Part shown: one piece after another, positions 4,978 through 57,069 of the stretch | Position numbering within the stretch: the first letter of the stretch is position 1 | How the letters are laid out: the number at the start of each line of letters is the position of its first letter | NCBI RefSeq assembly: GCF_003687725.1 | Contig: NZ_RDOJ01000018.1 | Span: 1-64,000, forward strand | From: Faecalibacter macacae | Lineage (GTDB): Bacteria > Bacteroidota > Bacteroidia > Flavobacteriales > Weeksellaceae | Length of the DNA stretch: 64,000 nucleotides | Direction: 5' to 3' | Notes under the pieces: model-generated | Seen by the model: only the letters and a program-made list of their open reading frames with translations | What the model was told of the DNA's origin: nothing | The model's database searches: none | Program-made: the position numbers and the translations under genes

Positions 4978-5391
4978 TTAGTTTTTAGTAATTAGTCCTT
5001 AGTAATTAGTTTTTGTTGTAATGCGAAATTCATTTTTTGAATTTCAATAATTTTATTTTTTAGATGTAGAAATTCATCCTCTGAACAAAATTTCAACATA
5101 AACGAAATTTCTAATTGTGTTAGTAATTCATAACTTGAACCATGAGAAATCGCTAAAAATTGTTTGAATTCTTTTTTCGAATTTCTTCCAGCGCCTTCAG
5201 CAATGTTAGATGCTATTGAAACCGATGCTCTTCTCATTTGATTAATCAATCCAAATTTTTCAATTTCAGGAAAGTGAGTCGTTAAACTGTAAATTTCTAC
5301 AGATAACTCAACTGCTTTATTCCAAACTTTTAAATCATTTAGATTATTCATCTTCCTCTAATTACTATTTACTAACATCTAACTACTATTC
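4978..5391 (-). mobile_element. Putative cassette: four-helix-bundle gene between inverted arms (copy 1)
   Basis: The gene at 4992-5351 is bracketed by inverted arms. TTAGTCCTTAGTAATTAG (4992-5009) is the reverse complement of CTAATTACTATTTACTAA (5358-5375) at 15 of 18 positions, and both sides extend as further degenerate TTAGTAATTAG-like units (4978-5013; 5358-5391). The left arm contains the gene's own stop codon; the right arm lies just upstream of its ATG and begins at the stop codon of the preceding enzyme gene. The cassette fills the whole space between two operon genes. No transposase and no clear target duplication are visible. Mobility is inference; the inverted arms are seen. Confidence 0.55.
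4992..5351 (-). CDS. Four-helix bundle protein (23S rRNA intervening-sequence protein family)
   Basis: Protein of 119 aa with the conserved family blocks: LKVWNKAVEL at 7-16, FGLINQMRRASVSIASNIAEG at about 33-53, GRNSKKEFKQFL at 55-66 and a GSSYELLTQLEI block near 71. The family (often called S23 or IVP) folds as four helices and forms pentamers; relatives are encoded inside intervening sequences of bacterial 23S rRNA or act as Avd accessory proteins of diversity-generating retroelements. No reverse transcriptase or variable repeat is nearby, so the Avd role is not supported. The last residues (LITKD) are encoded inside the left inverted arm. A second family member lies at 55537 in the same architecture. 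Function unknown. Confidence 0.9.
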   Translation of the reverse strand: MNNLNDLKVWNKAVELSVEIYSLTTHFPEIEKFGLINQMRRASVSIASNIAEGAGRNSKKEFKQFLAISHGSSYELLTQLEISFMLKFCSEDEFLHLKNKIIEIQKMNFALQQKLITKD

Positions 5392-24336: not shown

Positions 24337-25013
24337 AGGGAGACGCCAATGCTATTTCGACAATCATTCATAATTTAAATCTGACTTACACGTATAAAAA
24401 CTCGAATTTTGAAGCTTATTATCGTTACGAAAAAAATCCAGCAATGGAAATTTCCATTCAAAACAACGAAACTTTCGAAACGGTTTATCACTTCACAAAT
24501 ATCAAAAATGGTGAAGCGGTTGGAATAAATTTATCGAAACAAATTGATCTTAAAAATTGGTGGAAAGTGAATATTTTTGCGATGTCTGAATATAATTCGA
24601 ATTATTATATAGGTGCCGATCAGCAACAATATAAAAATGAAATTTTATTTTATAACCTCAACTTAAACACACAAATTGATTTGAATTCGGATAAAACATT
24701 TAGTGTTTCGGCAGGATATGTTTACAATTCTAAAATGATTCAGGCATCTTTTGATATCAGTTCTTCACAAAATATGTATGTAATCATTAATCGAAAATTT
24801 TGGGATAAACGATTGGATATTGGTTTAGTTTTTAATGATATTTTTAAAACTGACCGCAATACAATTAGCACCAATTATGCAGACCAGAATCAATATTTTA
24901 AAGATTACCAAGACACACAATATTTCATGCTGAATGTAAAATATAATTTTGGCAATCAGAAAGTTAAAGAAGCAAAAAAAGTTCAACAAACTGAAGAGCA
25001 AAATAGGATATAA
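24337..25013 (+). pseudogene. 3' remnant of an outer-membrane beta-barrel (TonB-receptor-like) gene
   Basis: The open frame continues upstream of the first ATG (24444) without stop to about 24337, reading QGDANAIST, HNLNLTYTYKNSNFEAYYRYEKNP, the style of the C-terminal barrel strands of PF14905-type outer-membrane proteins. About 225 residues remain of a family usually near 700-900. The end ...FMLNVKYNFGNQK is the typical last strand, followed by a charged tail. No signal peptide, plug or promoter is present, so it is a fragment. It abuts the truncated kinase head-to-head. Barrel genes of this type are often divergent from, and controlled by, an adjacent two-component pair. Confidence 0.75.
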
Positions 25014-25060
25014 ATCAGAAAGCCTCTATTTTAGAGGCTTTCTGATTTATATCCTATTTT
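25000..25060. terminator. Perfect 29-bp palindrome acting as bidirectional terminator
   Basis: Positions 25000-25028 pair without mismatch with 25032-25060, leaving a TTT loop. The inner part (AGAAAGCCTCTA) is an ordinary terminator stem, but the perfect pairing runs outward through the last codons and stop of the barrel remnant. It ends the convergent barrel fragment and SDR gene. The perfection and length are unusual. Confidence 0.85.
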
Positions 25061-54513: not shown

Positions 54514-55500
54514 ATGACAAATAAAATTAACGTTAGTATCGTAGGTGGAGCTGGCTACACGGCAGGAGAATTACTACGCATTCTGATTTATCATCCGAAT
54601 GTAAACATCTCTTCTGTGTACAGTACTTCTAATGCTGGAAACCCCGTTTCTAAAGTTCACGACGATTTATTAGGTGAGACCGATATCGTATTTTCAGACA
54701 AAATTGATGAAAATGCTGATGTCGTTTTTTTATGTTTAGGCCATGGTAAATCGGCAGAATTTTTAGCAAATAATACATATGCTGAACATACTGTTGTGAT
54801 CGATTTAAGTAACGATTTTCGATTAGATGCTAATAATGAACATGAAGAAAGATCGTTTGTTTACGGATTACCAGAATACAACCGCGCTGCAATTTTAGAA
54901 GCAAAAAACATTGCGAACCCAGGATGTTTTGCTACTGCAATTCAATTAGCTTTGTTACCATTAGCTGCGAGTAAATCAATCACAGAAGATATTCACATCA
55001 ATGCTGTAACAGGTTCAACAGGAGCTGGACAAGCTTTAGCTGCTTCTACACACTTTAGCTGGAGAAATAACAATGTTTCTTTTTACAAAGAGTTTTCACA
55101 TCAACACGAAGGAGAAATTTATCAAACTCTAAAATTATTAGAACCTGGTTTTAATAACAAAGTGTACTTCTTACCAATGCGTGGAGATTTTGCTCGTGGA
55201 ATTTTAGCTGGTGTTTATTTAAAATCTGATTTATCAGAAAAAAAAGCAATTCAATTATTCAAAGAATATTACAAAGACGAGCCTTTTACACACGTTTCAG
55301 ATGCACCAATTGCATTAAAACAGGTGGTAAATACAAACAAGTGTTTATTACACATCCAAAAACAAGACGACGTTTTATTAATCACTTCGATTATTGATAA
55401 CTTAACAAAAGGTGCATCAGGTCAAGCGGTTCAAAATATGAACATCATCTTCGGATGGGAAGAGAATTTAGGACTTAATCTTAAAACGGTAGCGTTTTAA
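54514..55500 (+). CDS. argC: N-acetyl-gamma-glutamyl-phosphate reductase
   Basis: NADPH reductase of 328 aa from ATG 54514. NADP motif IVGGAGYTAGELLRIL at 9-24 and the catalytic Cys138 in NPGCFATAIQ. The frame extends 18 codons upstream to 54460 (MDPLYFN...), but family similarity begins with MTNKINVSIVGGAG. The stop codon (55498-55500) is followed at once by the inverted arm of the second four-helix-bundle cassette. Confidence 0.93.
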   Translation: MTNKINVSIVGGAGYTAGELLRILIYHPNVNISSVYSTSNAGNPVSKVHDDLLGETDIVFSDKIDENADVVFLCLGHGKSAEFLANNTYAEHTVVIDLSNDFRLDANNEHEERSFVYGLPEYNRAAILEAKNIANPGCFATAIQLALLPLAASKSITEDIHINAVTGSTGAGQALAASTHFSWRNNNVSFYKEFSHQHEGEIYQTLKLLEPGFNNKVYFLPMRGDFARGILAGVYLKSDLSEKKAIQLFKEYYKDEPFTHVSDAPIALKQVVNTNKCLLHIQKQDDVLLITSIIDNLTKGASGQAVQNMNIIFGWEENLGLNLKTVAF

Positions 55501-55932
55501 TTAAGTTATGAGTATTGAGTTATAAGTTTTGAGATTATGCAAGACTACAGAAAATTAACAGTTTGGAATCGTTCACATCAATTAGTATTAGATTTATATA
55601 AACTTGTAAATCTGTTTCCTAAAGAAGAACAATTTGGACTAATTTCTCAAATCAAAAGAGCAGTATCTTCCATGCCTGCAAATATTGCAGAAGGTTGTGG
55701 TAGAAACTCAAATAAAGACTTTGCTCAATTCTTAAATATAGCTTTAGGTTCTTTGAATGAAGTTACATACTTTATTCTATTAGCCAAAGATTTAAAATAC
55801 ATTAATATTGAAGATTATTCAAAATTAACCGATGAGTGTAATGAAATAAAAGCCATGTTAATTTCACTAATTAAAAAAATTAGAGAAAAAAACTAACTCA
55901 TTACTCAAAACTCATCACTCAAAACTTTTAAT
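55501..55932 (+). mobile_element. Putative cassette: four-helix-bundle gene between inverted arms (copy 2)
   Basis: TTATGAGTATTGAGTTATAAG (55506-55526) upstream matches the reverse complement of CTCATTACTCAAAACTCATCA (55897-55917) downstream at 17 of 21 positions, and AAGTTTTGAG (55525-55534) pairs perfectly with CTCAAAACTT (55919-55928). Arms are built of repeated TGAGT(A/T)(A/T)TGAGT units. The cassette fills the entire argC-argD gap, from 1 bp after the argC stop to a few bp before the argD start, as copy 1 fills the fadB-fadA gap. The arms of the two copies differ in sequence but not in layout. Confidence 0.55.
55537..55896 (+). CDS. Four-helix bundle protein (23S rRNA intervening-sequence protein family), second copy
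   Basis: 119 aa, the same length as the copy at 4992, with the same blocks: LTVWNRSHQLVLDLY near 7-21, FGLISQIKRAVSSMPANIAEG at about 33-53, GRNSNKDFAQFL at 55-66 and a GSLNEVTYFIL block near 71. Roughly 40 percent identity to the first copy by eye. The protein should assemble as a four-helix bundle; enzymatic residues are not apparent. It interrupts the argC-argD pair and would be cotranscribed with the arginine genes, which do not otherwise explain it. Confidence 0.9.
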   Translation: MQDYRKLTVWNRSHQLVLDLYKLVNLFPKEEQFGLISQIKRAVSSMPANIAEGCGRNSNKDFAQFLNIALGSLNEVTYFILLAKDLKYINIEDYSKLTDECNEIKAMLISLIKKIREKN

Positions 55933-57069
55933 ATGAAACTATTCGACGTATATCCATTAATGAACGTAACTCCGGTTAAAGCCAAAGATTGTATTCTTTG
56001 GGACGAAAACGGAAAAGAATATTTAGACTTATACGGAGGTCACGCAGTGATTTCTATCGGGCACGCACACCCACACTATGTGCAAAAAATTACAGAACAG
56101 ATCAACAATATCGGATTTTACTCTAATTCAGTTCAAATTCCAATTCAAACAGAATTAGCTGAAAAATTAGGACGTTTATCTGGATATGATGATTATACAT
56201 TATTCTTATGTAACTCTGGAGCAGAAGCTAACGAAAATGCAACAAAATTAGCTTCTTTTCACACAGGAAAAGATCGCATCATTGCATTTAACGGTGCTTT
56301 CCACGGACGTACATCAGGATCGGTTGCTTTAACAGACAACCCAAAAATTGTTGCACCATTCAACGCACACCACAAAGTTTCTTTCGTAGATTATAACATC
56401 GACGCAATCAAAGAAATTATCGCTGGTGGAGATGTTGCAGCTATCATTTACGAACCAATTCAAGGAGTTGGAGGAATCATTTTACCTTCAGACGAATTTA
56501 TCCAAGAATTAAGAACTGTTTGTACAGAAAACGGAGTGATTTTAATCGCAGACGAAGTTCAATCAGGATACGGACGTTCAGGAAAATTCTTCGCTCACCA
56601 ACATTCTAACATCAAAGCTGATTTAATCACGATGGCGAAAGGAATGGGGAACGGATTCCCAATCGGTGGAGTTTTAATTTCTCCAGAATTTAAAGCTTCT
56701 TACGGATTATTAGGAACAACTTTCGGAGGAAACCACTTAGCGTGTGCGGCTGCAGTTGCTGTTTTAGATGTAATCGAGCAAGAAAACTTAATCGAAAACG
56801 CAAAAGAAATCGGTGAATACATCGGTATTCAATTAAATAAATTCCCAAAAATAACTGAAGTTCGTGGTCGAGGATCAATGATCGGAATCGAGTTCGACTT
56901 CCCAATTGCGGAATTAAAGAAAAACTTACTAGCGAAACACAACATTTTTGTTGGATACGCAGGAACAAATGTAATTAGATTACTACCACCACTTACTATT
57001 ACAAAACAATACGTAGATAAATTCATATCAGCTTTAGAAACTGAAATTAACATTATCATCAATGGATAA
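55933..57069 (+). CDS. argD: Acetylornithine aminotransferase
   Basis: PLP-dependent class III aminotransferase of 378 aa. GAEANENATKLA near 96-107 (phosphate region), DEVQSGYGRSGKF near 207-219, and the PLP-binding Lys236 in ITMAKGMGNGFP. It overlaps the carA start by 8 bp, so the two are coupled. In Bacteroidota it could use the succinyl or acetyl intermediate. Confidence 0.95.
   Translation: MKLFDVYPLMNVTPVKAKDCILWDENGKEYLDLYGGHAVISIGHAHPHYVQKITEQINNIGFYSNSVQIPIQTELAEKLGRLSGYDDYTLFLCNSGAEANENATKLASFHTGKDRIIAFNGAFHGRTSGSVALTDNPKIVAPFNAHHKVSFVDYNIDAIKEIIAGGDVAAIIYEPIQGVGGIILPSDEFIQELRTVCTENGVILIADEVQSGYGRSGKFFAHQHSNIKADLITMAKGMGNGFPIGGVLISPEFKASYGLLGTTFGGNHLACAAAVAVLDVIEQENLIENAKEIGEYIGIQLNKFPKITEVRGRGSMIGIEFDFPIAELKKNLLAKHNIFVGYAGTNVIRLLPPLTITKQYVDKFISALETEINIIING

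Follow-up and report, generated by a model that had tools for sequence, protein, structure and literature searches.

This study addressed the question of what occupies the gap between argC and an argD-like gene in Faecalibacter macacae, within a stretch of 64,000 nt (positions 1 to 64,000 of contig NZ_RDOJ01000018.1, here called the window). The distance from the argC stop (55500) to the argD ATG (55933) is 432 nt, and it divides without remainder into a 36-nt arm, one ORF and a second 36-nt arm (Table 1). The initial annotation had described a 119-aa PF05635 homologue that exactly fills this gap between inverted arms with a 10-bp perfect pair, and this proved to be real: the arms pair over 28 nt (55506-55533 and 55904-55931) with 82% complementarity, and they include the perfect 10-nt pair AAGTTTTGAG / CTCAAAACTT, read from the sequence. 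According to the ORF list, the IVP gene is the only coding content of the element. The pattern is family-wide and is explained here in part. On balance, it is probably a compact element that belongs in one class with the ORF-bearing intervening sequences (IVS) of 23S rRNA but resides in an untranslated gap of a protein operon.

Table 1. Coordinates of the argC-argD cassette, its neighbours and the second cassette of the window.
Feature	Position	Strand	Basis
argC, upstream operon gene	54514..55500	+	TIGR01850 above cut-off
Left arm, about five 7-nt units, up to the IVP start codon	55501..55536	+	sequence, arm-pair scan, pattern search
Left-arm units: AAGTTAT GAGTATT GAGTTAT AAGTTTT GAGATT	55501..55536	+	
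IVP (S23p-like) gene, 119 aa, PF05635 / TIGR02436, four-helix bundle	55537..55896	+	profiles, structure model
Right arm, inverted 7-nt units, up to the argD start codon	55897..55932	+	sequence, arm-pair scan, pattern search
Right-arm units: CTCATTA CTCAAAA CTCATCA CTCAAAA CTTTTAAT	55897..55932	+	
argD-like aminotransferase, downstream operon gene	55933..57069	+	best model TIGR00707, 378 bits, below cut-off 410
Second cassette, left arm, TAGT-type units	5358..5388	-	I4 of inverted-pair scan
Second cassette, IVP gene, 119 aa, 39% identical to the argC-argD IVP	4992..5351	-	profiles
Second cassette, right arm, overlaps the gene end, precedes the thiolase gene	4979..5009	-	I4, pattern search

The window holds a second cassette, flanked on one side by a 3-hydroxyacyl-CoA dehydrogenase-like gene and on the other by a thiolase gene, with an ORF of equal length and arms of 31 nt that are 74% complementary. 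The two had been described as alike in geometry and different in arm sequence; the geometry was confirmed, but the arms are not unrelated, because both consist of 7-nt units with an AG core. A scan for inverted pairs returned 84 in the window, and among the 25 longest, which were examined, the arms of the argC-argD and the second cassette were pairs I5 and I4. Both cassettes had arm scores above all of 25 shuffles. A four-unit heptad pattern with AGY in each unit matched five times in the 64 kb, compared with 0.06 on average over 100 shuffles; every match belonged to one of the two cassettes, and three of the four arms were represented. Arm-paired folding of the argC-argD element gave a z of -3.74, and Rfam had no match in the window. 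Elsewhere in the window, a perfect inverted repeat of 29 nt around a 3-nt loop (25000-25060) is perhaps a terminator. Another PF05635 gene of the same genome (G000:C12:58853-59164) contains a single in-frame TAG, and LSU rRNA, sought for comparison, was not present in the assembly.

The protein is well assigned. The argC-argD and second-cassette copies scored 141.3 and 133.4 bits against PF05635 (cut-off 33.8), and 141 and 122.2 bits against TIGR02436 (cut-off 24). The structure model (pLDDT 96.4) has a four-helix-bundle fold, with TM-scores of 0.93 to 2gsc_B and 0.81 to 2rld_B; the next structural matches, with weak E-values and TM-scores near 0.8, were Avd (4dwl) and a DGR ribonucleoprotein (8ub7). 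Both 2gsc and 2rld were deposited with five chains, and we take this type of fold to be a pentamer in solution. The IVP protein is under purifying selection, with dN/dS between 0.05 and 0.19 in all 24 pairs compared, which partly overlap. The PADLOC defence models returned no family for either window protein.

The initial annotation had asked for the arms to be compared with shuffled controls around other family members, and here they were enriched. All 14 genomes of the genus carry PF05635 matches (2-8 each, 64 in total), of which 63 were read, one fragment of a broken gene being omitted, and 58 intact ones scored; the arms of 37 exceeded the 95th percentile of shuffles (p95) and those of 29 exceeded p99. 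A wider set joined 29 loci from the phylum to the named loci, of which the best 80 out of 549 confirmed were taken; without one locus that lacked the motif (L201) and one with a short flank, 107 remained, and 83 of these lay above p95, 69 above p99 and 51 above p99.9. With phyla read from record titles, passes at p99 outside Bacteroidota included Poribacteria (3/3), Chloroflexota, Ignavibacteriota and Omnitrophota (2/2 each), Planctomycetota, Pseudomonadota and Bacillota (1/2 each) and Fibrobacterota (1/3), while the single loci from Cloacimonadota and Nanoarchaeota were not above p99. When the set was enlarged to 242 distinct PF05635 genes, which are not independent because many are orthologues, 181 exceeded p95 and 150 exceeded p99, leaving 61 not above p95. 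The controls were dinucleotide-preserving shuffles and 328 neighbouring genes; 38 of the latter were above p95 and 24 above p99, and some of these neighbours share the arms.

Arm positions in the 242-gene set had medians of 20 nt before the ATG and 3 nt after the stop. Among the 107 loci (including the best 80 of 549), self-match at a lag of 7 nt was 0.428 in the 60-nt upstream flanks against 0.295 (sd 0.004), and 0.403 in the 60-nt downstream flanks against 0.280 (sd 0.005), with harmonics at lags 14 and 21 in both. A small excess was seen at lag 8, and a few loci have 8-nt units, yet the best period was 7 in 59 of the 69 strong arms. Inverted heptad arms are a family-wide pattern, also beyond Bacteroidota. 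Three loci from three genomes (L032, L033, L064), with identical IVP proteins, have very long arrays of 7-8-nt units in both orientations and on both flanks.

When the 69 strong arms were aligned in phase, one core emerged, A (0.80) G (0.90) in each left-arm heptad, often followed by T or C, with the AG on the opposite strand in the right arm. The core held 3.09 bits of information, compared with 0.75 in shuffles, and is common to arms from several phyla; the other heptad positions vary between loci, and AG is missing from some arms. It is also conserved between orthologues. In 42 scored of 53 syntenic orthologue pairs, 38 of 430 positions had changed in AGs with another AG 7 nt away, against 105 of 554 in other AGs and 219 of 931 fourfold sites of the IVP gene, the positions not being fully independent. 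Conservation of the core rests on this larger set and not on the sets of few arms, which gave a p of 0.02 at one threshold and no significance at three others; there too, AGs in phase had changed less than those out of phase (2 of 92 against 11 of 82 at the widest threshold). The earlier suggestion that such elements recognise structure rather than sequence is therefore unsupported, given a shared AG per 7 nt and the conservation of phased AGs.

Several proposals about the unit were considered and set aside. Stop codons in all three frames were enriched in left arms (0.40 against 0.25 in shuffles) and right arms (0.25 against 0.11), but most arms are without them, so that this is not favoured as the purpose of a 7-nt unit. 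Nor is there a rule of exactly five heptads, one per pentamer subunit, as runs range widely, mostly from 1 to 6. Co-evolution of arm and protein was weak across genomes (Mantel 0.068, with 15 of 500 permutations as high) and absent within them. Across genomes, arm similarity was 0.23 at protein identities below 0.4, and 0.30, 0.42 and 0.61 at 0.5-0.6, 0.6-0.7 and above 0.7; within genomes, arm flavour and protein similarity gave a Spearman coefficient of -0.003, and fine recognition is therefore not favoured. Four-unit heptad arrays lay within 150 nt of an IVP ORF in 85 of 134 distinct cases and farther away in 49 (212 loci), in a sample biased by its selection for IVP genes or arm matches, with some arrays counted in overlapping registers.

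Whether the arms pair as RNA or as DNA was explored through their mismatches, and the evidence for RNA pairing is mixed. GU and AC mismatches were nearly equal in the 107 loci that include the best 80 of 549 (75:72), the 242 genes (117:109) and the 42 orthologue pairs (26:29), so that these larger counts lack the GU excess to be expected under selected RNA pairing and speak against it; 14 pairs within the genus gave 11:3. In the orthologue pairs, 22 paired columns had changed on both sides where 10.8 were expected, and 13 of the 22 were complementary; on this account the two arms apparently evolve together, perhaps as DNA, although misaligned heptads could add to the count. The genus set had 3 double changes against 2.5 expected.

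PF05635 genes sit mainly in the reading direction of their surroundings. Crude, ORF-based calls placed both neighbours on the gene's own strand in 190 of 242 cases; 18 genes were antisense between co-directional neighbours, and 34 had divergent, convergent or uncalled neighbours. Recurrent neighbours, named by eye except where profile scores backed them, included argC, argD-like genes, the fad pair and his genes. There were 22 argD-like neighbours in the named set (best 80 of 549), a share that is biased because the set was chosen by similarity to the window copy. In Pedobacter, Chitinophagaceae and other Bacteroidota, armed IVP genes, some of a different type, stand just ahead of argD-like start codons (L113, L114, L116, L118, L149, L167, L172), and for this reason the argC-argD gap may be a recurrent target. 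The four helix bundle gene of Flavobacterium columnare between guanylate kinase and nicotinate mononucleotide adenylyltransferase, which the accessible part of PMC5524665 tabulates as a phage element, may be another operon-gap copy.

Sites without the gene, which the initial annotation had proposed to look for, were found at argC-argD itself. The IVP gene is present there in 9 of the 14 genus genomes, with three arm flavours: four copies of the window type (one frameshifted), two with ACGTATA units and three with CGTTTAG units. In the other five, the gap is short in three, holds an arms-only scar in one (L044) and is occupied by another, unrelated gene in the last (L045, genome G003), at the ends of which stand apparent leftovers of arms, of two different flavours. 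The three flavours at one site, together with the varying heptamer number in Coxiella that is described in the available text of PMC4990558, make plausible the earlier idea that arms evolve by turnover of tandem units. Of 19 IVP-less gaps, 12 were tested: four were 7-nt periodic beyond 200 of 200 shuffles (L044, L051, L053, L057), two weakly so (L048 and L052, with 8 and 10 of 200 shuffles as high), and six had no such periodicity. In L051 and L057, hairpin folding also exceeded that of all 100 mononucleotide shuffles. Elsewhere in the genus, other genomes have intergenic heptad hairpins that enclose no gene (L099, about 2013-2090; L100, about 1970-2030; L101, about 1980-2030), the first two apparently at one locus in two species.

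Comparison of the window genome (G000) with a second species (G010) revealed a distinctive pattern. Their argC-argD elements have three differences in the IVP gene and none in the arms, with dS of 0.03 for IVP, 1.21 for argC and 0.79 for argD. Outside the element, the first differences occur 18 nt short of the argC end and 33 nt into argD, although the start of argD is conserved throughout the genus. Because a near-identical element stands between divergent genes, the argC-argD copy has, on this sequence evidence, evidently been exchanged between the two species, as alleles. In seven pairs, the dS of IVP was below that of both flanking genes in five, the exceptions being G010-G004 (above argC) and G006-G005 (above argD). 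The notion of recent independent insertions was not supported: on the genus tree the site labels need 8 changes, compared with 26.4 for shuffled labels, and 0.69 was the highest identity in 169 pairs of strong-armed, non-syntenic genes from the same genome, so that no recent copy at a new site was found. The argC-argD copies are not one strict clade, with at least 2 forced changes.

The most likely explanation is a selfish or semi-domesticated, IVS-like element whose heptad arms are recognised by the protein that it encodes. The IVP protein would form a pentamer, and its subunits would recognise the AG heptads in the arms of the same element, whether as RNA or as DNA. Binding would hold the arms together and govern the element's own stretch of message, and could perhaps help site-specific transfer, for which homing-like copying and short-tract recombination are candidate acts. 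Against this stand its place outside 23S rRNA, the 61 genes without arms above p95, the independence of arm flavour from protein similarity within genomes, the equal GU and AC counts (117:109 and 26:29), which speak against selected RNA pairing, a unit number not fixed at five, the 49 of 134 distinct arrays away from IVP genes in that biased sample, and the absence of copying to a new site among the 169 pairs. A broader proposal is offered tentatively, as somewhat short of probable: PF05635 genes across bacteria would be one class of minimal elements that encode no reverse transcriptase themselves. Their helix-bundle protein, a pentamer, would read the inverted arms of its own element by a 7-nt ruler, with AG recurring once per 7 nt; the 23S IVS would be a special case, and operon gaps such as argC-argD would be recurrent homes where one whole element replaces another in a homing-like manner. 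A ruler with a conserved core at most sampled family members provides a concrete candidate ligand for a widespread protein of unknown function, and operon copies are easier to study than rRNA copies.

A rather unlikely alternative, but one with several observations in its favour, is that the cassette is no element but a resident regulatory module, in which the protein binds heptads before its own start and that of the next gene and tunes translation of the operon, the shared sites reflecting descent, loss and ordinary recombination. TRAP, which reads spaced NAG triplets, offers an analogy. The sense orientation of 190 of the 208 genes between co-directional neighbours is consistent with such a role, as are the strong purifying selection, the closeness of the arms to start and stop codons, the lack of recent copies at new sites and, from the available text of PMC4679880, the interpretation of TAACTGA heptamers upstream of start codons as possible regulator sites. 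It is less easily reconciled with the five of 14 genus genomes that lack IVP at argC-argD, the three flavours at one site, the near-identical copy between divergent flanks in two species, and host pathways that are unrelated to one another.

It is improbable that the cassette is a DNA element or retroelement mobilised in trans, with the arms serving as terminal inverted repeats for a transposase or reverse transcriptase whose gene lies elsewhere. The inverted arms and gene-less arm pairs do resemble terminal repeats and MITEs, the concerted changes of the arms would fit, and a TTTTAAT repeat (55495-55501 and 55926-55932), a candidate target-site duplication, flanks the window copy and that of G010. 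This repeat was, however, not seen around the other arm types at argC-argD, no close copies were seen among the 169 same-genome pairs, and a flavour private to its locus is unlike the usually similar terminal repeats of one transposon family. The initial annotation had seen no reverse transcriptase in the window, and this extends to the whole genome, where PF00078 had no match, so that a retroelement acting in trans was rejected. Chance complementarity of AT-rich flanks, to which the 61 genes not above p95 might be ascribed, is refuted by the 7-nt period, the dinucleotide-preserving shuffles, the window pattern search and the neighbouring genes (24 of 328 above p99, against 150 of 242).

Among known systems, the preferred reading of an IVS-like element has to be set beside three. 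The IVP protein is like Avd of the diversity-generating retroelements in fold (4dwl, 8ub7) and, distantly, in sequence (NF033474, phrog_3206), and the likeness of PF05635 and Avd is noted in the accessible part of PMC10053308. The cassette differs from these retroelements in that its genome lacks a PF00078 reverse transcriptase and its two window proteins, at 34.9 and 21.5 bits, fall below the cut-off of 80 for the Avd equivalog. TAACTGA heptamer repeats, described in the available text of PMC4679880 from Beggiatoaceae, Cyanobacteria and some Bacteroidetes, and often just upstream of start codons, are similar in being 7-nt tandem units, and the CT of TAACTGA matches the right-arm unit; unlike the window arms, those arrays have one fixed unit and are almost only direct repeats. 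That text, as far as available, makes no mention of 's23', 'four-helix' or 'intervening', and no description of heptad arms as a general PF05635 feature outside rRNA was found among the open-licence PMC papers searched. The fit of TAACTGA to the right-arm unit is a lead only, and the heptad arms are in turn a lead for those unexplained arrays.

The closest resemblance is to the 23S rRNA IVS of Coxiella burnetii which, in the portion of PMC4990558 available, is given as 428 nt in length and combines an S23p ORF and a terminal stem of 28 bp with GACAGAT heptamers that directly precede the ORF and vary in number among strains; it is cut out by RNase III, its ORF is reported to decay, and the function and origin of such IVS are called unclear. 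The argC-argD element matches it in size (432 and 428 nt), in having one S23p/PF05635 ORF, in its inverted terminal arms and in the heptamers before the ORF. It differs in that both arms are built of heptads, its protein is under purifying selection instead of decaying, and its site is an operon gap rather than 23S rRNA, the location by which an IVS is defined. Since that location is lacking, it is filed as an IVS variant and not as a 23S IVS, and the same arm type in most of the relatives examined suggests an operon-dwelling form of the rRNA insert.
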